A stretch of DNA of 64,000 nt from Clostridiales bacterium (GTDB lineage Bacteria > Bacillota > Clostridia > Christensenellales > Aristaeellaceae). Below the pieces are notes generated by a model. The model was not told the origin of the DNA, made no database searches, and saw nothing but the letters and a program-made list of their open reading frames with translations. Every line of letters begins with the position of its first letter. Positions within the stretch are counted from its first letter, which is position 1. Shown one piece after another: positions 15,310-44,153 of the stretch. The position numbers were made by a program, and so were the translations under genes. The stretch spans positions 1 to 64,000 of the forward strand of contig SVGL01000002.1 in NCBI GenBank assembly GCA_015056325.1. Reading direction: 5' to 3'.

Positions 15310-16102
15310 CAGTATCACCTCCATTCTGCAGTATTTTCTGTAGTTCTTGCTTAGTCGGATACCGTTTGCAACTCCCGTGTTGTTCAGGGCACCACATCAG
15401 ATGCTCACACTGGGGCATCAATTCTGATGCGAATCTGGGAGAAACATCAGCAATGGCTGCTTGCATTTTGAACGCAATCTCGCGAATGAACTCCTGTGCC
15501 CTCACACACATCCGTTTGTGGCAGAAATGAATCAGCGCTTCAGGTGTAAAACCCATGACCAGCTCGCTCGTTGTTGCCCGGGGAAGAACGAAGTTTGCAT
15601 CTTGAGTGGCCTGCTTTGCGTTGCAACCACCATCTTCAAGAAGCTGTTTGATCACACTGCGCTTTTCGTTTATGTGATTCATCAACGCCTCGTATTCTGC
15701 CAGCGCAGAAGCGTTACGACGGATGGTAGCGGGGGTCTCCCACTCGAAGCCCGACTTATCGATGTATCGAAAAGAGGCACAGTTTTTTACTACCTGATCT
15801 GCCGGAATACTGGTTACGGTATCCATTGCATCTTGGAATCTGTAGTTATCCTGAAAAGCATACGGAACATCTGTGCCAATCTCATGACGCATGCATTGTT
15901 CTGCGGTTCCGCGATCCAAGCCTGTGATTCTGAATTTGATGTACTCACAGCGGCTCCCGCTCATGTGACCACTTCGTTGGCACGAAATACCCACACGTTT
16001 TGCATGCTTTTCAGGAGTGTCATAACAGACACAAGCAAACTGGCCATGCTTCTCGTATAATGCCTTTACATCATCCGGATTGAGCAATGTTACAGTGATC
16101 AT
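15224..16102 (-). CDS. thyX: Flavin-dependent thymidylate synthase-like protein (ThyX)
   Basis: A 292-residue protein resembling ThyX, which makes dTMP from dUMP with FAD, NADPH and methylene-tetrahydrofolate. Family traits are RGTAEQCMRHE (the arginine-histidine motif region), NCASFRYIDKSGFEWETP (the loop after it) and, most clearly, FVLPRATTSELVMGFTPEAL followed by HFCHKRMCVRAQEFIREIA. About 27 residues are inserted in the classic RHRxxSxxxxSxR motif region, so activity should not be taken for granted. The C-terminus carries about 30 residues read out of frame through the start of the small terminase gene. It starts four bases inside the methyltransferase gene (ATGA). Confidence 0.82.
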   Translation of the reverse strand: MITVTLLNPDDVKALYEKHGQFACVCYDTPEKHAKRVGISCQRSGHMSGSRCEYIKFRITGLDRGTAEQCMRHEIGTDVPYAFQDNYRFQDAMDTVTSIPADQVVKNCASFRYIDKSGFEWETPATIRRNASALAEYEALMNHINEKRSVIKQLLEDGGCNAKQATQDANFVLPRATTSELVMGFTPEALIHFCHKRMCVRAQEFIREIAFKMQAAIADVSPRFASELMPQCEHLMWCPEQHGSCKRYPTKQELQKILQNGGDTDGYQRKKTQADCLENARGEPGKASSERS

Positions 16103-17361
16103 TCCTGGCCTCCCTGCTTCTGAGGAACAACCGCCGCATAGGGGAGTTTCTCGCCATTTCGCAGCACCCAGATATCTGACGTGTCCTGCCGATATACTGC
16201 ATACCGTTCAACAATCACGCTGGCATATCGGGGGTCAAGCTCCATCGTACGACAAATACGGTCCGTTTCTGCACAAGCGATAAGTGTACTACCAGAACCG
16301 CCAAACAGATCCAGCACCACAGCGTTTGGTGCGGAGCTATTCTTGATAGGGTAAGCCAGAAGCGGGATAGGCTTCATAGTCGGGTGTTCCTTATTGCGCT
16401 TCGGTTTGTCAAAATTCCAGATGGTTGTTTGCTTGCGATCTGCGAACCAGCGATGTTTGCCATTGGGCATCCAGCCGAACAGAACAGGTTCATGCTGCCA
16501 CTGATAGGGTGAACGACCAAGCACCAGGGAGTTCTTGACCCAGATACATACACCTGAAATATGGAATCCAGCCTCTTTGAAAGCACGTCGGAAGTTTAAC
16601 CCTTCTGTATCCGCATGAAAGATGTATGCAGAACCGCCTTCTGCCATATAAGAAGCCATATTCCGAAATGCTGCAAGCAAGAACTGATAGAACTTCTCGT
16701 CAGCCATGCTGTCATTCTGAATCGATTTTCCATCTGCAGATTCATAGGCCACATTATAAGGCGGGTCGGTGATTACCAGATTAGCTTTTACGTCCTCCAT
16801 CAGCCGCGCTACATCATCAGCGTTGGTGCTGTCACCGCATACCATTCGGTGGTTTCCAAGCATCCATACATCGCCAGGCTGAACAAAAGGCTGGACTTCA
16901 TCAGGGTCAATATCGCAGTCATCATCTTTGACATCTTTATCATGAACCTTTGAGAAGAGGTCATCAACTTCTGCCGCATCGAAGCCAGTTGCGCCCAGGT
17001 CATAACCAGAAAGCTGGAGATCAGCCATCAGCTCCGCCAGTGCCTTCGGCTCCCATTCACCGACAGCTTTATTTAGTGCAATGTTGAGCGCCTTTTCGTC
17101 CTGCGGATTCTCAATGTGCACAACAACACAGTCGATGGCAGTAGCGCCATCCGCGACAAGCACCTTATACCGCTGATGACCACCAACAATATTGCCAGTG
17201 ACTTCATTCCAGATGACCGGGTCGACATAGCCAAAGTCATTCAGACTTCGCTTGATCTTTTCGTACGCGGGATCACCAGGTTTCAGGTCTTTTCGCGGGT
17301 TGTATTTTGCGGGCTTCAACCTGTCAACCGGGATTCTTTGCAGGTTCATTTCAGTATTCAT
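16099..17361 (-). CDS. ParB-like domain fused to N4/N6 DNA methyltransferase
   Basis: A 420-residue fusion. Residues 1-110 are a ParB/sulfiredoxin-like domain, with PVDRLKPAKYNPRK and, around residue 60, the nucleotide-binding NIVGGHQRY. Then comes an amino-methyltransferase with catalytic DPPYNVAY (about residue 195), a target-recognition part, and the SAM-binding LDLFGGSGSTLIA near residue 370. It would methylate adenine N6 or cytosine N4 in phage DNA. The likely purpose is to escape host restriction or mark DNA for packaging. The ATG at 17361 is preceded by AGGAGGTCAGCC. The open frame upstream runs into the G-rich non-coding stretch and is rejected. The prophage also encodes MetK, which would supply SAM. 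Confidence 0.94.
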   Translation of the reverse strand: MNTEMNLQRIPVDRLKPAKYNPRKDLKPGDPAYEKIKRSLNDFGYVDPVIWNEVTGNIVGGHQRYKVLVADGATAIDCVVVHIENPQDEKALNIALNKAVGEWEPKALAELMADLQLSGYDLGATGFDAAEVDDLFSKVHDKDVKDDDCDIDPDEVQPFVQPGDVWMLGNHRMVCGDSTNADDVARLMEDVKANLVITDPPYNVAYESADGKSIQNDSMADEKFYQFLLAAFRNMASYMAEGGSAYIFHADTEGLNFRRAFKEAGFHISGVCIWVKNSLVLGRSPYQWQHEPVLFGWMPNGKHRWFADRKQTTIWNFDKPKRNKEHPTMKPIPLLAYPIKNSSAPNAVVLDLFGGSGSTLIACAETDRICRTMELDPRYASVIVERYAVYRQDTSDIWVLRNGEKLPYAAVVPQKQGGQE

Positions 17362-17529
17362 GGCTGACCTCCTTGGGTGATAACAATATTTCTTCAGGCC
17401 GCTTATCAGAGCGGCTTTTTGTGTCCTTTGATAAGTGGATACCCCCACCCCCGAATTTCGCGAAAATTCACGCGAGAGTGGGGCGCGGTCGCTTAGGATA
17501 GGCCCCCAGAGATTCGATCCCCCCTCCCG

Positions 17530-17962
17530 GGCACACCACTTTCGCCGGGTGAAGTGCCCGACGGGGCCGGTTCTGGGGCACCCGGGGGGCCGGGGTGTAC
17601 CGGGGCGCGGTGGGGGCGGCAGCCGGGGGCGAAGGGGGTGTGCCGGGTGGCGCAGGCTGGGGACCCGGGCGGCGGGGTGTGCCGGGCGGCGGGCTGGGGA
17701 CCTGCAGCCGGGGCGGGGGCCTTCCGGGGCGGCTTTTCGCGGCGCGGCGCGGGCGGGGGCGCAGCCTGGCCACACGGGGCCTTTCCCAGGCGGCAGCCCC
17801 TTTTCCCGGGCGCGGGGCCGGGGGCGGCACGTGGGGCCTTTACGGCCCGGACACGGGCAAAACGCGGGGGGCGGGCGGCCTACCAGGGGCCTTTCCCGGG
17901 CGGCGGGGGCGGGCAGAAGGGGGCGGGCACGGCGGGCGATCCGGGCGGCGCGGCGCATAAAC
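17530..17962. repeat. Hyper-GC tract with G-runs and degenerate short repeats
   Basis: Nearly all bases are G or C, with G strongly favoured on the plus strand; by eye over 80 percent GC against roughly half in the phage genes beside it. There are many runs of three to six G, so G-quadruplexes are possible. A degenerate unit around GGGGCCTTTCCCGGGCGGC recurs several times (for example near 17777, 17805, 17838 and 17886). No coding signal was found. A packaging site, a fork barrier or simply slipped repeat DNA are possibilities. Confidence 0.7.
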
Positions 17963-18101
17963 ACTGGGGATCGGGGGCCGAAAAGCTACACAAACCCCGT
18001 ATCTTCCAGAAGCTTTGGCAGCCGATCCCGGAAGGGGTTCGCGTACGCGCTATATTAAGGAAGCCGTTTTTCCGGCGGCCGTTTTTTGTGTAGTAAGAGC
18101 T

Positions 18102-18233: not shown

Positions 18234-19118
18234 ATGAAAAACCAGACTTTCGGCATCGAGATTGAAACAACGGGTCTCGGGCGCAGAGGCACAGCCCAGG
18301 CCATCGCGGCCTTCTTCGGAACGACCGCCCGGTACATCGGAGCCCACCTCGACAACTGGGAGGTGCCGATGCCGGACGGGCGGCATTGGACGGTCGAAAG
18401 CGATGCCTCGGTGACCAACCCCAGCGCGGAGGTGGTCAGCCCGGTGTGCCGCTGGGAGGACATCGAGATGGTGCAGGCGGTGGTCAGGCACCTCCGGAAC
18501 GCCGGGGCCAAGGTTGACGGCTCCTGCGGCATCCACATCCACGTCGGCCTCGGGGCACACACCCCGCAAAGCCTGCGGCGGCTGGTCAACCTGGTCAATG
18601 CCAAGGAAGACCTCCTGACACAGGCCTTGGGCATCACCCCGGAACGCCGGGCCCAATGGTGCCAGCCGGTTTCGCCCCGATTCCTCGAGGCGGTCAACAA
18701 GGCCAAGCCCACCACCATGGACGGCTTCGCGGAGATTTGGTACCGACACAGTGGCGGCAGCAGCGGAAACTGGCGAGTGTGCGCCCTGCACCACTACGAC
18801 CACAGCCGCTACCACCTGCTCAACCTCCACGCCACCTTCTCCACGGAGCGCCCGGCGCACACCATCGAGTTCCGCGCCTTCAACGGCACACTCCACGCCG
18901 GGAAGATCAAGGCCTACATCCAACTGTGCCTCGCGATAAGCGCCCAGGCCCTGAACACCAAGGCCGCAAGCGCCACCCGCCCGGTCACGGACAACCCGAA
19001 GTACACCTTCCGATGCTGGCTCCTCCGCCTGGGCTTCATCGGCGACGAGTTTGAAACCGCCCGGACACACCTCCTGGCCAACCTGCCCGGCAACGCCGCC
19101 TGGCGGCAGGCCTCCTAA
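18234..19118 (+). CDS. Amidoligase (COOH-NH2 ligase of the GCS/GS-like fold)
   Basis: A 294-residue protein of the phage/prophage amidoligase family, related to glutamine synthetase and gamma-glutamylcysteine synthetase. Such enzymes are predicted to form amide bonds between a carboxylate and an amine using ATP. Visible motifs are FGIEIETTG at residues 6-14 (metal-binding Glu pair), ESDASV near 60 and SCGIHIHVG near 99-107. Later comes HTIEFRAFNGTLHAGKIKAYI near 220 (Glu/Arg of the active site). The start is the ATG after GCAAAGGAGCCCCC. Its codon use is much more GC-rich than in the structural and replication genes. It opens the plus-strand island that ends with an AIG2-like cyclotransferase. 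Confidence 0.9.
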   Translation: MKNQTFGIEIETTGLGRRGTAQAIAAFFGTTARYIGAHLDNWEVPMPDGRHWTVESDASVTNPSAEVVSPVCRWEDIEMVQAVVRHLRNAGAKVDGSCGIHIHVGLGAHTPQSLRRLVNLVNAKEDLLTQALGITPERRAQWCQPVSPRFLEAVNKAKPTTMDGFAEIWYRHSGGSSGNWRVCALHHYDHSRYHLLNLHATFSTERPAHTIEFRAFNGTLHAGKIKAYIQLCLAISAQALNTKAASATRPVTDNPKYTFRCWLLRLGFIGDEFETARTHLLANLPGNAAWRQAS

Positions 19119-19190
19119 ACCCGCCTGACGATGACCCTTGGCAAGGGTCGAAACCCCGCAAGGGGTCGCGGGAGCCAAGCTCCTAAATCA
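19119..19190 (+). ncRNA. Three-hairpin leader repeat, copy 1
   Basis: Just after the amidoligase stop. It contains three consecutive hairpins: GACCCTT/AAGGGTC with loop GGC, CCCC/GGGG with the stable tetraloop GCAA, and GGAGC/GCTCC with loop CAA. CTAAATCAAGCAAGGAGG with the ribosome binding site of the next gene follows directly. Near-identical copies occur at 20024 and 20574, each also in front of a gene start. I read it as a cis-acting 5' leader RNA. Confidence 0.65.
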
Positions 19191-19207
19191 AGCAAGGAGG
19201 TACACCT

Positions 19208-19513
19208 ATGTACGAGCACACCTACTGGAACCGGAACGGCGAGGCACAGGCCAAGTACGACGCGATGGAGGCCGCTGGCTTCCGGTACACCCAAGCCACG
19301 CACACCCTCTTCCACGCCTACTACCGCTACCACAACGACGGTGACCTGCCCGGCTGGGCGCGGAGCCGCTGGGACATCACCCGGTACACTTTCGAATTCG
19401 GAAGCAGGCAGCGTGTGCTCACCGAGGCAGGCGAGGCCGAGTTCGAACGCCGGATCACCGAAAGGATCGAAATCGAGCACGCCCGCTTCCTGCGGACGCA
19501 CACCCTGGCCTGA
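19208..19513 (+). CDS. Small hypothetical protein of amidoligase island (A)
   Basis: A 101-residue protein, rich in Tyr, Arg, His and Glu, with a long charged C-terminal helix (EAEFERRITERIEIEHARFL). I recognise no family. It starts after CAAGGAGGTACACCT and directly follows leader repeat copy 1. Its position right behind the amidoligase makes it a candidate partner or substrate, which is inference. No signal peptide or membrane segment is visible. Confidence 0.7.
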   Translation: MYEHTYWNRNGEAQAKYDAMEAAGFRYTQATHTLFHAYYRYHNDGDLPGWARSRWDITRYTFEFGSRQRVLTEAGEAEFERRITERIEIEHARFLRTHTLA

Positions 19514-19517
19514 CACA

Positions 19518-19543
19518 GCTACCAAATCAAGGAGGAACACATC
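19518..19543 (+). promoter_or_regulatory. Repeated gene-start motif (GCTACCAAATCAAGG + RBS)
   Basis: One of seven places in the island where a GCT-(N2)-C/T-AAATCA box stands 0-6 bases before a GGAGG ribosome binding site. The others are 19179, 19770, 20085, 20339, 20636 and 21348. The box is more conserved than needed for ribosome binding. Confidence 0.6.
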
Positions 19544-19765
19544 ATGAAGACCATCACCCTGACACACAAGCTCTCCGACTTGGGCGCCTTCCTACGAGGT
19601 ACAGATGCTGACGAAATCATCGCCCGAACCACGTACATCCCGGGCGGCTGGCACGAGGCGGAATTCGAGGCACACCGCGCTGGCTTCCAAATCAGCCGCT
19701 TCCTCAACGAGGAGTACCTGCGCAACCACACCTTTGCGGAATGCTACCGCCTGATCCGCCGCTGA
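19544..19765 (+). CDS. Small hypothetical protein of amidoligase island (B)
   Basis: A 73-residue protein starting KTITLTHKLSDLGAFLRG, of mixed alpha/beta character, ending in a helix with ECYRLIRR. No known family recognised. It is preceded by the CCAAATCAAGGAGG start motif and lies in the run of small genes behind the amidoligase. A copy of the GCTTCCAAATCA box also occurs inside its coding sequence at 19683. Confidence 0.68.
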   Translation: MKTITLTHKLSDLGAFLRGTDADEIIARTTYIPGGWHEAEFEAHRAGFQISRFLNEEYLRNHTFAECYRLIRR

Positions 19766-19798
19766 CACAGTTTTCAAATCAAGAAGGAGGTACACACC

Positions 19799-20005
19799 AT
19801 GTACGAAGATTCCGAAATCATGAGCGAAGAAGAGGTCGTTTCCAACCTGATCGCCCTGCTGCACGGCGAGGCCATCGAAGACACCATGCTCGACGGGAGC
19901 CGGGCAACCACCTTTTCCGACGGCGGCTACCTTACCCGCGACGAAGGCTTTGTCCTTTACACACCGGACGGATCCAAATTCCAGATCACGGTCAGACAGG
20001 TGTGA
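19799..20005 (+). CDS. Small acidic hypothetical protein of amidoligase island (C)
   Basis: A 68-residue acidic protein, with an N-terminal helix containing SEEEVVSNLIALLHG and a C-terminal beta hairpin (LTRDEGFVLYTPDGSKFQI). No family recognised. The ATG follows TTCAAATCAAGAAGGAGGTACACACC. The second leader repeat starts 18 bases after its stop codon, so transcription of the row probably continues. Confidence 0.68.
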   Translation: MYEDSEIMSEEEVVSNLIALLHGEAIEDTMLDGSRATTFSDGGYLTRDEGFVLYTPDGSKFQITVRQV

Positions 20006-20023
20006 CCGGCGGCTTCCAAATCA

Positions 20024-20098
20024 ACCCGCCTGACGATGACCTTTGGCACAGGTCGAAACCCCGCAAGGGGTCGCGGGAGCCAGAGCTTCCAAATCAAG
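20024..20098 (+). ncRNA. Three-hairpin leader repeat, copy 2
   Basis: Second copy of the element. In hairpin 1 the fifth pair is T-A (GACCT/AGGTC) where copies 1 and 3 have C-G. That compensatory change supports a folded RNA. Hairpin 2 (CCCC-GCAA-GGGG) is unchanged. Hairpin 3 has loop CAGA and a GCTTCC arm in place of GCTCCT. It is flanked on both sides by GCTTCCAAATCAA boxes. Confidence 0.65.
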
Positions 20099-20114
20099 CA
20101 AGGAGGACACACAC

Positions 20115-20336
20115 ATGCCCAGCATCACCTACTTCATCCGCTTCACCCTGCGCGATCCGAAACCCGGCGTTCCTTACGAGGAACAGGAACACCTGAACCT
20201 TGCGGATGCTTTCGAAGCCTTCCGCCTCTTCGCCGAAGCCGACAGCCGCTGGATGTACACCCATATCGAGCTGACCGAGTACAACTGGGAAGAGTGTACC
20301 GACACCCCGATCGCCACCATGACCTTCAACGCCTGA
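20115..20336 (+). CDS. Small hypothetical protein of amidoligase island (D)
   Basis: A 73-residue protein, beta strand first (SITYFIRFTLRD), then a helix with LADAFEAFRLFAEADSRW and a final strand containing TPIATMTFNA. The arrangement looks like a small ferredoxin-like or sandwich fold, but I recognise no family. The start follows CAAGCAAGGAGGACACACAC and leader repeat copy 2. An in-frame ATG upstream lies inside the leader and is rejected. Confidence 0.68.
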   Translation: MPSITYFIRFTLRDPKPGVPYEEQEHLNLADAFEAFRLFAEADSRWMYTHIELTEYNWEECTDTPIATMTFNA

Positions 20337-20364
20337 CAGCTTTCAAATCAAGGAGGACAAACAC

Positions 20365-20583
20365 ATGGCAAAACTGGATCTGGACACCTGCATGGACATC
20401 TTCGACTGGTTCGATGACAACACATTCGAATACATCAACCACATCATGCTCAGCAAGGTCGATGGGGAGGCCAGGGTCAAGGGCGCAATGCCCGAGATCC
20501 GCAAGCGGGCCAGGTGGCTGCTGAAACTCCATCGCGGCACAGACGGTGCCTACCCGGAGCAGCTTTTGAATCAACCCGCCTGA
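20365..20583 (+). CDS. Small hypothetical protein of amidoligase island (E)
   Basis: A 72-residue mostly helical protein (MDIFDWFDDNTFEYINHIML in the first half, RKRARWLLKLH in the second). No family recognised. It starts after TTTCAAATCAAGGAGGACAAACAC. Its stop lies inside the first bases of leader repeat copy 3 (the last codons read NQPA from the repeat itself). This suggests that the coding end was created when the repeat was placed there. Confidence 0.65.
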   Translation: MAKLDLDTCMDIFDWFDDNTFEYINHIMLSKVDGEARVKGAMPEIRKRARWLLKLHRGTDGAYPEQLLNQPA

Positions 20584-20647
20584 CGATGACCCTTTGGCAA
20601 GGGTCGAAACCCCGCAAGGGGTCGCGGGAGCCAACGCTCCTAAATCA
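20574..20647 (+). ncRNA. Three-hairpin leader repeat, copy 3
   Basis: Third copy, differing from copy 1 by one extra T in the loop of hairpin 1 and loop CAAC in hairpin 3. All stems are intact. It is followed by CTAAATCAACACAAGGAGG and the ATG of gene F. Changes among the three copies sit in loops or are compensated, as expected for a conserved RNA structure. Confidence 0.65.
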
Positions 20648-20666
20648 ACACAAGGAGGAACACAAC

Positions 20667-21026
20667 ATGACCCCTGAACAGAAAAAGATTTACTTCGCTG
20701 CCTACCATGCAGCCATCGAGGCTCTCGAATCAACAGTTGCCTACCGCGAACACCGAACCGCAGGTGCAAAGCGACGCGCTGATGCTGCCAGTGCCGCAGC
20801 AGGTCAGGCTGCCGGTGCCGCATCCAAAGCGAAGTCCGAATTAGAATACGGCGAGGCCTACGAGCGGCTCGAGGAAGCAGCTTGCTGCGCGGAGCTGGTC
20901 TGGCGTACCCTGACACAGAACATTTGCACTCGGATGAATAGACATGACTACAGGAAGTGGGCGGACAAAATTCGCGCCAACCTGGCATCGGCAGAAAGCT
21001 CTCAAATCAACGAGGGTAAAAAATAA
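20667..21026 (+). CDS. Small helical Ala-rich protein of amidoligase island (F)
   Basis: A 119-residue protein, helical throughout, with an alanine-rich middle (RADAASAAAGQAAGAASKAK) that looks like a coiled coil. The C-terminus contains HDYRKWADKIRANLASAE. No family recognised. The ATG at 20667 is preceded by CAAGGAGGAACACAAC. Its GC content is lower than that of the preceding genes of the island. It is followed by a promoter-like sequence for the last two genes. Confidence 0.68.
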   Translation: MTPEQKKIYFAAYHAAIEALESTVAYREHRTAGAKRRADAASAAAGQAAGAASKAKSELEYGEAYERLEEAACCAELVWRTLTQNICTRMNRHDYRKWADKIRANLASAESSQINEGKK

Positions 21027-21050
21027 AAGCCGAGCGGGCACACATACCGC

Positions 21051-21081
21051 TTGACTTTCCGGGCATTTAGAGTGATGAATA
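21051..21081 (+). promoter_or_regulatory. Promoter with TTTAGAG spacer element (family B)
   Basis: TTGACT at 21051 and TGAATA at 21076, with TTTAGAG inside the spacer (21066-21072). The same layout occurs on the minus strand at 23445-23474 and 32781-32810. A small palindrome, GTGATG/CATCAC, overlaps the -10 side. Probably drives genes G and AIG2. Confidence 0.55.
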
Positions 21082-21111
21082 CCATCACCGCGAACGCAAA
21101 GGAGGATCAGG

Positions 21112-21342
21112 ATGCGCGAACGCTACGAAATCATGAAGGCCATGAATACTCTGATCATGGCCCTGAACAATGAGGATGCCTACATGGAATGGATCCTGAC
21201 GGTTCCTGATCAGGCCAGCGATGATGACCTAATGGATATCGCCACGGATGATGAGCTCTTCGCCGATGCCTGCACGGCTTTCAAATCGGCTATGCGCGAC
21301 TACAGCGAAGACGGTTTCTACATCGACAAACGAGTCTGGTGA
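21112..21342 (+). CDS. Small acidic hypothetical protein of amidoligase island (G)
   Basis: A 76-residue acidic helical protein with DDDLMDIATDDELFADA in the middle. No family recognised. It has a strong AAAGGAGGATCAGG site and its own promoter-like sequence upstream instead of the repeated gene-start box. A CTTTCAAATCGG box occurs inside the coding region at 21277. It lies 30 bases upstream of the AIG2-like gene. Confidence 0.7.
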   Translation: MRERYEIMKAMNTLIMALNNEDAYMEWILTVPDQASDDDLMDIATDDELFADACTAFKSAMRDYSEDGFYIDKRVW

Positions 21343-21372
21343 CACAGGCTTTCAAATCAAGGAGGAAGATAC

Positions 21373-21825
21373 ATGAAGTACATTGCTTACGGTTCCAACA
21401 TGGTTGAAGAACAGATGGCACATCGCTGCCCGAATGCGCGGCTGATCGGCATGGGATACCTGCCCAATCACCGGCTGGAGTTTTACCTCCACGCCACCGT
21501 CGAACGCTCCAAGGCAAAGGGGCCGGGAGTGCCGGTTGCGGTGTGGGAGATCGACGAGGAAGATGAAAAGAGCCTCGACCGCTACGAGGGCTACCCCAAC
21601 TACTACATCAAGCGCCGCAAGAAGGTGAGGATGAACGACGGCTCTGAAATCGAGGGCATGATCTACCTGATGAACCTGATCCGGCCTTACCCCCCGTACC
21701 GCCAGTACTACCTGGGCATCCGCGAGGCATACGAAAAGCTGGGCATGGGGCACGAAGTTAGCCGGGTGCTGGTACCTGCCCTTTACCGGAGCCATGCACG
21801 AACGGAACGCTGCCAGTATAGGTAA
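21373..21825 (+). CDS. AIG2-like gamma-glutamylcyclotransferase
   Basis: A 150-residue protein of the AIG2/GGCT fold. It has the ligand-binding opening YIAYGSNM (residues 3-10), RLIGMGYLPNHRLEF, VWEIDEEDEKSLDRYEGYP with the catalytic-type Glu/Asp region near residue 70, and YYIKRRKKV. These enzymes cleave gamma-glutamyl amides to 5-oxoproline. With the amidoligase at the other end of the island they form the pair predicted by comparative genomics in phage amidoligase systems: one makes a gamma-glutamyl-type amide, the other removes it. It starts after TTCAAATCAAGGAGGAAGATAC and ends at a terminator. Confidence 0.9.
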   Translation: MKYIAYGSNMVEEQMAHRCPNARLIGMGYLPNHRLEFYLHATVERSKAKGPGVPVAVWEIDEEDEKSLDRYEGYPNYYIKRRKKVRMNDGSEIEGMIYLMNLIRPYPPYRQYYLGIREAYEKLGMGHEVSRVLVPALYRSHARTERCQYR

Positions 21826-21840
21826 GGCCTTCAGCCGAAC

Positions 21841-21873
21841 GCCGCTTCCAAATCGGGAGCGGCCTTTTTCTTT
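21841..21873 (+). terminator. Rho-independent terminator of the amidoligase island
   Basis: GCCGCT/AGCGGC stem followed by CTTTTTCTTT on the plus strand, just after the AIG2-like gene. Its loop contains the CTTCCAAATCGGG version of the island's repeated box. Confidence 0.75.
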
Positions 21874-22024: not shown

Positions 22025-22537
22025 TTACATGATATGCGCTGCCATCTGGATGGTTCCCTCTTCGGTGCTCCAGTAGCGGATTATCACCGCTCCATCAGCC
22101 GCGTTGAATTTGGCCTGAAACGGCTCGGGCCATAGTTCAGAAAGCCCGGGACAGTTTTCAAATGCCTCAAGGCGGTATTCCATCGCGGCTTCTGGATCGT
22201 CGCGGCATAGCAGGAAGATCCTTTTCAACTCTTCCGTCTGCTTCTGAATCACCAGGGCCAGTACCTCGCTCGCCGGACGCGAGTCGAAATCGGAAGCAGG
22301 AATCGCAGGCTGAAATGCATGCCACTGGTGAAGCGGGTAAGCCTGCTTCATGAAAGCCAGCATAGCTTCCGCAGTGCCGCAATCATCACACACATACAGT
22401 TCAGCAATCCTGCTGAGAGCATTGGTTGTAACAGGCTTCTTCAGTTCGGTAGAACCGCAACGTGGACACAGCATCCGGCAATCCTGATCTTGCCGCGCTT
22501 GCAAATCAAGCAGACGTTTACGTGTTCTTTCAGTCAT
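22025..22537 (-). CDS. Zinc-ribbon hypothetical phage protein
   Basis: A 170-residue protein with a four-cysteine zinc ribbon near the N-terminus (LCPRCGS and, about 30 residues on, YVCDDCG), followed by an alpha/beta region rich in acidic residues. No known function. The ATG at 22537 is preceded by AAGGAGGTGATACCC. It overlaps the 3' end of the upstream gene by 8 bases, so they form an operon. Its end lies just beyond the convergent amidoligase island. Confidence 0.72.
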   Translation of the reverse strand: MTERTRKRLLDLQARQDQDCRMLCPRCGSTELKKPVTTNALSRIAELYVCDDCGTAEAMLAFMKQAYPLHQWHAFQPAIPASDFDSRPASEVLALVIQKQTEELKRIFLLCRDDPEAAMEYRLEAFENCPGLSELWPEPFQAKFNAADGAVIIRYWSTEEGTIQMAAHIM

Positions 22538-23414
22538 GGGTATCACCTCCTTCAGCTTTCAAATCAGCCTGTCGAGCGGCCTGACGTTTTGCAGCAAGTT
22601 TCTCCTTATGTGCCTGCATACCAGCGTCATCCCTGAAGGCGGCATAGCCCTGAAGATGATCCAGAAAGAAGCTCCGCGCAGCTTTCTGATCAGCTCCACC
22701 ATACCCAAGTCGCAGGAGGAAAGCCCTAGCCGCATACTTTTCATTCTCGGGTTCATCAATCGCAAGGCGTACCCGCGTTGCCCCCTTCGCCTGCTTGAGA
22801 ATTCGGTCAATCAGGTCTGAGTAAAATGTCCAGTTCTGAGGCTCGGCTTCAGAATAAGGAGTAGCCAAGGTGAAGGCGCTGGCTGTCAGGTTCATACCCT
22901 GGAGCAGTCCGTTCTCAGCGGCCTGAGTTACACGTGCTTCGAAATCTGCAGGGCTCTCTGGAGGCGTTTTGCTCAGTTCCTCAACAAAGTCCCTTGCAAT
23001 GTGCAGATCGTCCGTCCGCAGCATCTTTCGAATGATGTACTGCTTACTGCAGAGCATCCGCATCAGATTGGTCAGCTGGGAAATCGTCCAGTCGGTAATT
23101 TCAAAGGAAATATCCATGCAATACCTATCATTGGAGCGGGACACCATAGCGGGCTGTTTATCCATCGTATCCTCCTCTTCTTGGGGTGTTTCCAGTTCCA
23201 CGCCTTCGGATGCAAATCCGTTGTCACGCAGAAAAGGAAGCAGCTGGTTAAGGGCTTCAGGCTCTCCAGTAATGGAGCCGTCCCGATTCACGAGGAGCTC
23301 ACCAATCTGGAAGGCGTAGGTAGGGGTGCGCAAATAGGTGGCAGGCGTAGACAAGTGCTCGGAAATCATCCGAACCATGCTGCGCCGGTCGTCGCATTGT
23401 GTGGTAATCGTCAT
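22530..23414 (-). CDS. Hypothetical phage protein of the so-called virulence-related type
   Basis: A 294-residue protein opening MTITTQCDDRRSMVRMISEH and, soon after, PTYAFQIGELLVNRDGSITG. I have seen this pattern in prophages and integrative elements of Clostridia, often labelled virulence-related protein without any evidence. The rest is helical, and the C-terminal third is very basic (HKEKLAAKRQAARQADLKAE). No catalytic motif is visible. It has its own promoter-like sequence with a palindrome that ends at its ribosome binding site. Confidence 0.72.
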   Translation of the reverse strand: MTITTQCDDRRSMVRMISEHLSTPATYLRTPTYAFQIGELLVNRDGSITGEPEALNQLLPFLRDNGFASEGVELETPQEEEDTMDKQPAMVSRSNDRYCMDISFEITDWTISQLTNLMRMLCSKQYIIRKMLRTDDLHIARDFVEELSKTPPESPADFEARVTQAAENGLLQGMNLTASAFTLATPYSEAEPQNWTFYSDLIDRILKQAKGATRVRLAIDEPENEKYAARAFLLRLGYGGADQKAARSFFLDHLQGYAAFRDDAGMQAHKEKLAAKRQAARQADLKAEGGDTHD

Positions 23415-43877: not shown

Positions 43878-44153
43878 GTGTGCAATGCGACCAACGAAGA
43901 AACCCGCATGAAGATCCTGCGCTTCATCGACAACTACACCCGCCGTCACAACTATTGCCCGAGCATGCGGGAGATCGCTGCAGCTGTCGGCATCAAGTCG
44001 ACCTCCACCGTCCATGGCTACATTACCCGAATGCGTCGCGATGGCCTGATCGTCGCTGAAGATCGCTGCCCGCGCACCATTCAGATCAAGCGCAAACATC
44101 CCCAGGATTTCTCCCATATCCGCACCAATACGATTGTCCGAAAGTCCGTATAA
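43878..44153 (+). CDS. LexA DNA-binding domain protein without peptidase
   Basis: A 91-residue protein equal to the N-terminal winged helix-turn-helix of LexA: ILRFIDNYTRRHNYCPSMRE, IAAAVGIKSTSTVHGYITRM, RDGLIVAEDRCPRTIQIKR. The C-terminal S24 peptidase domain is missing, so it cannot self-cleave. It could bind SOS boxes permanently, or compete with host LexA. The start is a GTG after TTGGAGGTGCTTAACC. It lies in the operon of the full-length repressor. Confidence 0.87.
   Translation: MCNATNEETRMKILRFIDNYTRRHNYCPSMREIAAAVGIKSTSTVHGYITRMRRDGLIVAEDRCPRTIQIKRKHPQDFSHIRTNTIVRKSV

Follow-up and report, generated by a model that had tools for sequence, protein, structure and literature searches.

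Phage gene clusters that combine an amidoligase, a glutamine amidotransferase and an AIG2-like protein were reportedly predicted by Iyer et al in 2009. Clusters of this composition are tabulated for LUZ24-like phages (PMC3890496, Table 2). Clustered hammerhead ribozymes have been described in prophages, where several of them flank single genes or short gene blocks and three tandem arrangements cleaved in vitro; pseudoknots have been described for all three hammerhead types (Perreault 2011; PMC3088659). The role of hammerheads in phages is regarded as an open question (PMC6155905).

Here, we analysed a stretch of 64,000 nucleotides from a Clostridiales bacterium contig (the window). We assign a probability of about 0.8 to the reading, drawn from the sequence, that the locus under study is a phage amidoligase–AIG2 operon in which three type I hammerhead ribozymes would cleave the transcript at sites separating the genes. 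Like the tabulated LUZ24-like clusters (PMC3890496), it holds Amidoligase_2 and AIG2 together, and related islands add an amidotransferase-like gene; unlike them, the window's island is free of an amidotransferase, carries intervening small ORFs and ribozymes, and has a second, probably inactive, amidoligase paralogue. It also resembles two Ca. Heliusvirales phages of Christensenellales (PV036419 and PV036454) in having an amidoligase, small ORFs and a downstream convergent pair. The amidoligase islands of both phages adjoin ParB-like and terminase genes, and their last gene is AIG2 in PV036419 and amidotransferase-like in PV036454. In contrast to the window's island, no ribozyme is annotated in the examined stretches of the two phages, and the Heliusviridae paper (PMC9226167) uses neither "ribozyme" nor "amidoligase" in its main text. 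With the prophage clusters (PMC3088659), the locus shares the arrangement of several hammerheads around single genes or short gene blocks. It differs from them in that one related contig holds nine hammerheads and in the features of the island copies, which belong to type I, in most cases have an additional nucleotide following A9, escape Rfam 15 and often have the stop codon of the upstream gene inside the core; the term "stop codon" is absent from the main text of Perreault 2011 (PMC3088659).

The layout given by the first-pass annotation, in which seven small ORFs lie between an amidoligase and an AIG2-like cyclotransferase, all on the plus strand, was confirmed by ORF coordinates and by Pfam and PHROG searches. 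The amidoligase (18234–19118, plus strand, 294 aa) matches Amidoligase_2 in Pfam (PF12224, E 1.2e-59, 202.6 bits, cutoff 22) and phrog_2443 (amidoligase) in PHROG, and contains FGIEIE, HIHV and EFRAFN, which we take to be motifs of the catalytic Amidoligase_2 form. The AIG2-like gamma-glutamyl cyclotransferase (GGACT; 21373–21825, plus strand, 150 aa) matches PF06094 (E 1.5e-12, 48.6 bits, cutoff 22.8), phrog_2520 (cyclotransferase) and human GGCT (E 1e-6). Judging from their families, one enzyme of the pair probably forms an amide or gamma-glutamyl bond on some target and the other takes it off again. As also claimed before, the island is more GC-rich (59.3% at 18234–21825) than its neighbours (49.9% at 16099–17337 and 53.1% at 22025–23414). 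The terminator said to close it was found as a terminator-like hairpin with a T tail (21841–21873, plus strand; hairpin 21841–21863), but such matches occur overall no more often than in shuffled sequence (6 versus 5.5).

Between the genes, three plus-strand elements are strongly indicated by their sequence to be type I hammerhead ribozymes, and are predicted to be self-cleaving. Ribozyme 1 spans 19120–19172 (core 19125–19131), ribozyme 2 spans 20025–20077 (core 20030–20036), and ribozyme 3 spans 20575–20628 (core 20580–20586). Each would cut after GUC, at 19167/19168, 20072/20073 and 20623/20624, with the next start codon 40, 42 and 43 nt after the cut, respectively. Hammerhead positions are numbered in the usual way (A9, 10.1, A15.1–U16.1, H17). 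The core CUGANGA, GAAA, A15.1–U16.1 and C17 are present in all three window copies and in all 32 aligned copies, the search descriptor demanding these elements. The window copies have 5 pairs in stem I, which is open-ended, 5–6 in stem II (counted to 6) and 5 in stem III. By eye, GGC in their loops and GCC in their tails could pair to form a stem I–loop II contact; at least 4 complementary nucleotides for such a contact were found in 53 of the 81 other phage copies listed, a raw count without shuffled control. A type I hammerhead would be expected to have no nucleotide between A9 and 10.1; a single additional one was counted there, ahead of stem II, in 29 of 32 island copies and 36 of the 81 others listed, taking whichever register pairs better. 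When the three uncut elements were folded freely (z-scores −2.0, −1.6 and −2.8), stems II and III formed and stem I was absent, its 3′ strand pairing with the leader.

The descriptor (core plus three stems) gave three matches in the window versus none in 20 order-1 Markov resamples, and a plain pattern gave three versus none in 100 shuffles. Both strands of stems II and III vary: in an alignment of 32 copies (A2), they were 96.8% paired with a covariation of 0.254, versus 0.090 when shuffled and at most 0.042 when slid, and an alignment fitted to the model (A3) gave 95.8% and 0.284. Searched against 91 sources, a model built from island copies (R1) gave 57 matches, every one within an island of the close clade, and also one strong match in phage PaP3 (44027–44111, minus strand, E 1.4e-5), the next match having an E of 0.62. 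A PaP3 hammerhead is named in the figure legend on active variants of Perreault 2011 (PMC3088659). The Rfam 15 search listed no hammerhead for the window, nor for any of six related loci, and the PaP3 candidate was likewise missed at the gathering cutoff. As none of the tested copies was found, annotation that relies on Rfam will miss them. A riboswitch or other known Rfam element in the island was also considered and rejected, no family reaching the cutoff and a DUF2815 RNA match (E 3.8) being taken as chance.

For the placement of the elements, we parsed 62 hand-chosen matches, reduced to 61 (56 island, 5 other) when L140 8614 failed the cut motif. Left out were same-contig copies (L009, L014, L018, L089, L090, L092), a cut-short one (L010), L013 11163, three of L023 (9193, 9887, 10460), L026 9992, and L145 and L146 (other cut-site letter). 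A ribosome-site-like motif and a start codon follow within 70 nt of the predicted cut in 57 of the 61, the cut usually lying about 40 nt upstream of the start. A second set, found by pattern, comprised 80 viral loci among the matches listed (at least 120 stretches), several of them contigs of the first set. There, the same motif and start were found within 140 nt in 69 of the 99 copies listed (median 43), versus 29% of random positions, the start being out of range in the other 30. The ribozyme is not tied to amidoligases, an idea that we rejected: amidoligase, AIG2 or amidotransferase genes are present in at least 8 of these 80 loci, a lower bound because the loci are only 1–15 kb long. In related genomes, a further six loci carry the ribozyme without any of these genes within the 9–16 kb fetched.

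In the window, the stop codon of s5 (20581–20583) is the UGA within the core of ribozyme 3. Among 54 island and 78 other copies examined, an upstream ORF was found in 53 and 55, and in 38 of the 108 testable cases, or about a third, this ORF terminates on the core's own UGA.

The core, stems, covariation and placement are read directly from the sequence; cutting in the cell, and an altered stability and translation of each piece, would follow from them. Cutting would yield four mRNAs, carrying the amidoligase, s1–s3, s4–s5, and s6–s7 with AIG2. Every downstream product would start 5′-GCGGGAGCC..., and its very 5′ end could refold into a hairpin, some 40 nt ahead of the following start codon, which would hold the freed stem I strand, hinder re-ligation and shield the message. 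Refolding of the 5′ end is predicted outside amidoligase loci (0.71 versus 0.56 in shuffled sequence, higher in 64 of the 81 copies listed) and is weak within islands (0.69 versus 0.62, higher in 39 of 61). We tentatively extend this to a broader proposal, possible though less likely than not, that phages widely use hammerheads as translation-coupled punctuation, with the upstream gene ending on the core UGA. A terminating ribosome would then cover stem I together with the core, keeping the ribozyme unfolded, so that cutting would wait for it to leave, after which the downstream piece could fold its protective 5′ hairpin. Cleavage would in this way reflect translation of the upstream gene and determine how much of each neighbouring protein is made.

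Cleavage might instead act as a translational switch, the next gene being translated well only after the cut. Before cutting, the leader GCUUCC would pair with the ribosome site, and afterwards GGGAGC at the new 5′ end would pair with GCUUCC and free it. With the cut, the predicted accessibility of this site increases from 0.45 to 0.51, shuffled leaders being unchanged (p 0.0015; 57 of the 61 copies used), and the window copies go from 0.20 to 0.70, 0.36 to 0.57 and 0.19 to 0.35 for ribozymes 1, 2 and 3, respectively. However, the mean effect is small, and the 9 of 57 copies that gain more than 0.2 stand against 48 with a gain of at most 0.2, some of them dropping; we consider such a switch unlikely. 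We consider it highly improbable that pieces released by neighbouring ribozymes are re-joined into circular or shuffled mRNAs. Stem I (CCCGC/GCGGG) is nearly constant in the island copies, being identical in 30 of the 32 or different by one pair, while stems II and III vary, so the released pieces could be ligated; in the pattern-found set, however, its constancy is imposed by the choice of pattern, the 5′ end created by the cut has a tendency to fold back, and spliced or circular products were not detectable according to Perreault 2011 (PMC3088659).

The elements could also serve mainly as joints for the exchange of small-gene cassettes by recombination, catalysis being secondary. Gene content does vary between islands, and the same gene occurs with or without a ribozyme (s3 with one in five of six cases). 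A YY..AAATCA repeat stands directly before 23 of 56 island copies and recurs in leaders. Signs of damage are seen in some related copies: L013 9863 has lost GAAAC, the cut motif of L140 8614 is changed, and L013 11163 and L026 9992 are partial. Compensatory changes nevertheless keep the core and its pairing, which is unexpected for mere joints, and we regard this explanation as improbable. With cutting between genes as the preferred reading, the focus moves from small ORFs as enzyme substrates to operon processing, for which the locus and its kin offer a compact testable setting, with many natural copies, defined predicted cut sites, comparable spacing to the following gene and, in many cases, a stop codon that is also part of the catalytic core.

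The seven small ORFs, all on the plus strand, gave no match above a cutoff in Pfam, and their best match in PHROG had an E of only 0.046. Across 25 mapped islands, s1 (19208–19513, 101 aa) was found in at least 8, s3 (19799–20005, 68 aa) in at least 6 and s7 (21112–21342, 76 aa) in at least 3, while s4 (20115–20336, 73 aa) and s5 (20365–20583, 72 aa) were found in at least 4 and 9 other islands, respectively. These counts are lower bounds because the ORF picker missed s4 and s5 of the window and some others. The remaining two, s2 (19544–19765, 73 aa) and s6 (20667–21026, 119 aa), are confined to the window and two near-identical contigs. The first-pass annotation had proposed the small proteins as candidate substrates or partners for the amidoligase, with the AIG2-like enzyme reversing the modification, and had named a lack of conservation in related islands as evidence against it. 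Such a lack was seen for s2 and s6; the other five recur, as the proposal would have it, but the set changes and none of them is constant across the mapped islands. Moreover, in 54 distant loci with an amidoligase–AIG2 pair (L027–L088), the two genes are 9–970 nt apart, and less than 150 nt in 38. A general role as substrates or partners is thus not supported, and we consider it decidedly improbable. Since most distant pairs leave no room for them, and given their patchy occurrence, the small ORFs are probably variable, exchangeable cargo rather than general substrates of the pair.

The link between amidoligase and AIG2 is itself real and widespread. Among 96 amidoligase locus entries, a cyclotransferase lies downstream in 72, an amidotransferase-like gene is found in 10 (8 distinct), and 14 have neither, several of these being cut-short loci; none has both. 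A further 82 entries, at least four of them contigs already in the first set and two (L206, L228) chosen for their ribozymes, comprise 48 with a cyclotransferase only, 7 with an amidotransferase only, 4 with both and 23 with neither. The class II amidotransferase that marks the amidoligase–amidotransferase–AIG2 system is lacking from the window's island, and no relative of the amidotransferase-like protein was found at E ≤ 1e-3 in the genome to which the window belongs, which is 85% complete (search without positive control). The island had been called a reduced or divergent form on account of the missing amidotransferase; its absence from the window stands, but the amidotransferase-free form is one of several. 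The name amidotransferase-like is putative and draws on motifs, distant tblastn matches to an annotated putative amidotransferase and a related protein's GATase_4 match just under the cutoff; a PDB profile search with the protein gave no match. In the last slot of 21 mapped islands, amidotransferase and AIG2 were never found together, and the tree needs five changes, at least three of them forced by well-supported branches. Strict alternation between the two was rejected because four loci of the second set carry both and a single protein of phage C75C1 combines an amidotransferase-like N-terminal part with an AIG2 domain.

Finally, the second amidoligase paralogue (22530–23414, minus strand) matches phrog_2443 (E 3.2e-30), its Pfam amidoligase score of 12.1 bits is below the cutoff of 22, and it lacks the IEIE, HxH and EFR motifs; by its sequence, it is probably not catalytic. 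The first-pass annotation had overlooked this paralogue and all three of the near-identical intercistronic elements. The convergent neighbour of the island, a zinc-ribbon-like protein (22025–22546, minus strand; Pfam matches below cutoff), was clustered in 20 of the 25 mapped islands.

All of the genes that the first-pass annotation had named in the island were found in the window by ORF calling and by Pfam and PHROG searches, from the amidoligase (18234-19118, plus strand) through the small ORFs s1-s7 to the AIG2-like cyclotransferase (21373-21825, plus strand). An element overlooked in that annotation is a 60-nt repeat with three intergenic copies in the island (ribozymes 1-3, at 19120-19172, 20025-20077 and 20575-20628 on the plus strand). 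A profile search showed that CUGANGA, GAAAC and GUC-GCGGG are constant across its relatives while two hairpins vary; the element is strongly predicted to be a type I hammerhead ribozyme. A descriptor of the core and three stems, which asked for four stem I pairs and three in each of stems II and III, matched three times in the window versus zero in 20 order-1 Markov resamples, and a plain pattern gave three matches versus zero in 100 shuffles. When 32 distinct copies were aligned, 96.8% of cells were paired and covariation was 0.254, compared with 0.090 after shuffling and at most 0.042 after sliding. Pairing extended beyond what the descriptor required, in stem II to pairs four and five (32/32 each) and in stem III to pair four (31/32), with the register after A9 picked for best pairing. 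A model-match alignment of 50 distinct rows, itself fitted to the model, was 95.8% paired with a covariation of 0.284. In free folding, stems II and III formed and stem I did not, the strands left over pairing instead with the leader and ribosome site; the z-scores of the three elements were modest (-2.0, -1.6 and -2.8). Damaged relatives have lost GAAAC (L013 9863) or the cut motif (L140 8614), and two further copies are partial (L013 11163 and L026 9992). In a related genome, a ribozyme relative (L142:8113-8178, minus strand) lies between a reading frame that we take to be ArdC-like and a 245-aa gene; its core, CCGAUGA, is the same in L141 and differs from CUGANGA.

As an external control, R1, an RNA model with only island copies as input, was run with filters off on phage PaP3, where it gave one strong match (44027-44111, minus strand, E 1.4e-5; next best, E 0.62). 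A legend on active variants in Perreault 2011 (PMC3088659) names a PaP3 hammerhead in a phage intergenic region, and we infer that the two are the same. Rfam at its own cutoffs missed this candidate and listed no hammerhead across six related island loci, so its silence on the window hammerheads says little either way. Twenty of the 80 listed pattern-found loci (viral contigs matching the plain pattern) were scanned as well; Rfam named no hammerhead in them, and reported there one twister-sister (L177:1081-1152) and one twister-P5 (L188:1370-1423), both in viral loci that also carry these hammerheads.

Across 91 sources, R1 gave 57 matches (E up to 1), not one of which fell in L027-L088, the distant amidoligase loci; in a genome search, 14/100 genomes had matches, the window's own among them. 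On one contig, L140, nine copies crowd into about 4 kb, with s1 and amidoligase-like paralogues close by. For 80 amidoligase loci on genome contigs, the pattern was found in 12/16 close islands and 0/64 others, or 13/17 and 1/65 with L206 and L228, which were added for having ribozymes, the sole positive among the 65 being a cut-short gene. The ribozyme type is not amidoligase-specific, since at least 120 stretches of viral contigs match the plain pattern. Phage-linked hammerheads flanking small uncharacterised ORFs are already known (PMC3088659, PMC6155905, PMC10085705 and PMC7761336); a hammerhead and an amidoligase in one paper were not found in the literature searched, which omits most subscription papers.

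In 57 of the 61 parsed copies, a ribosome-site-like motif and a start codon come no more than 70 nt after the predicted cut (40, 42 and 43 nt from cut to start for ribozymes 1, 2 and 3), and 69/99 pattern-found copies among the matches listed have such a pair within 140 nt (median 43) versus 29% of random positions. On the upstream side, the amidoligase stops just 5' of ribozyme 1, s3 stops 19 nt 5' of ribozyme 2, and the core of ribozyme 3 holds the stop codon of s5. The core UGA is the exact upstream stop in 15/53 island copies and, among the matches listed, in 23/55 copies outside amidoligase loci; the upstream ORF stops at least 8 nt earlier in 36/53 and 32/55, respectively, and continues in another frame in 2/53 and 0/55. 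For random UGAs, 5/48 were ORF stops and 27/48 had the ORF running on; an earlier count gave 25/81 stops on the core UGA versus 84/1616 random UGAs (among the matches listed). The CCGCC letters by themselves preclude stops in the last few bases 5' of the core UGA. Because the predicted cut falls 3' of the UGA, the upstream gene would remain intact. Neither PMC3088659 nor PMC10085705 uses the term "stop codon" in its main text, and a literature search listed no title on a stop codon inside a prophage hammerhead core; most subscription papers lie outside that search, so the arrangement may already be published.

After the predicted cut, a predicted fold begins within the first four nt in all 61 leaders (31 at nt 1, 30 at nt 3 or 4). 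The gain of this 5' fold over shuffles was modest (0.69 vs 0.62, above in 39/61) and clearer outside amidoligase loci (0.71 vs 0.56, above in 64/81 among the matches listed). Predicted freeing of the ribosome site on cutting was small, from a mean of 0.45 to 0.51, with 9/57 gaining more than 0.2. Several ribozyme-free island genes are preceded by a leader resembling GCTTYCAAATCAAGGAGG (within 19185-21365), which can pair with its own ribosome site; AAATCAAGNAGG has 11 matches in the window with at most one mismatch, mostly within the island, versus 1.2 expected.

Amidoligase motifs are kept in the plus-strand gene and absent from a minus-strand paralogue (22530-23414), which is perhaps a partner subunit. 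This motif-less paralogue was found in most mapped islands, and several distant phages carry it 5' of their amidoligase. An amidoligase followed by AIG2 occurs in 72/96 entries of the first locus set. Some close islands encode a protein beginning MC, with HFR, HPF and AHNG motifs, presumably marks of a class II amidotransferase; it had no Pfam or PDB match. One distant relative carries the annotation putative amidotransferase; in a second, AIG2 shares a chain with a GATase_4 match that falls slightly short of the cutoff. AIG2 and the amidotransferase-like gene never shared a locus in the first set and did so in four loci of the second (82 further entries), so they are not simple substitutes. 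UFV-P2, a LUZ24-like phage, carries genes for amidoligase, amidotransferase, ATP-grasp and AIG2 proteins (PMC3890496).

Near relatives of the island adjoin ParB-like and terminase genes in PV036419 and PV036454, two phages of Christensenellales hosts, both filed under Ca. Heliusvirales. Others lie in genomes of Clostridia, among them Candidatus Pullichristensenella (78%); the window's genome has a second, broken amidoligase copy on another contig. The DUF2800 RNA motif (RF02960) was not listed by the Rfam scan of the window, and was found in both Heliusvirales phages (L103:35287-35443 and L104:35605-35760). Positions 17338-17980, which separate the ParB-methylase-like gene from the amidoligase, have 72.5% GC and contain a degenerate 39-nt tandem repeat (17562-17699); L142 and L143 likewise have low-complexity reading frames a few kb off their ribozymes.
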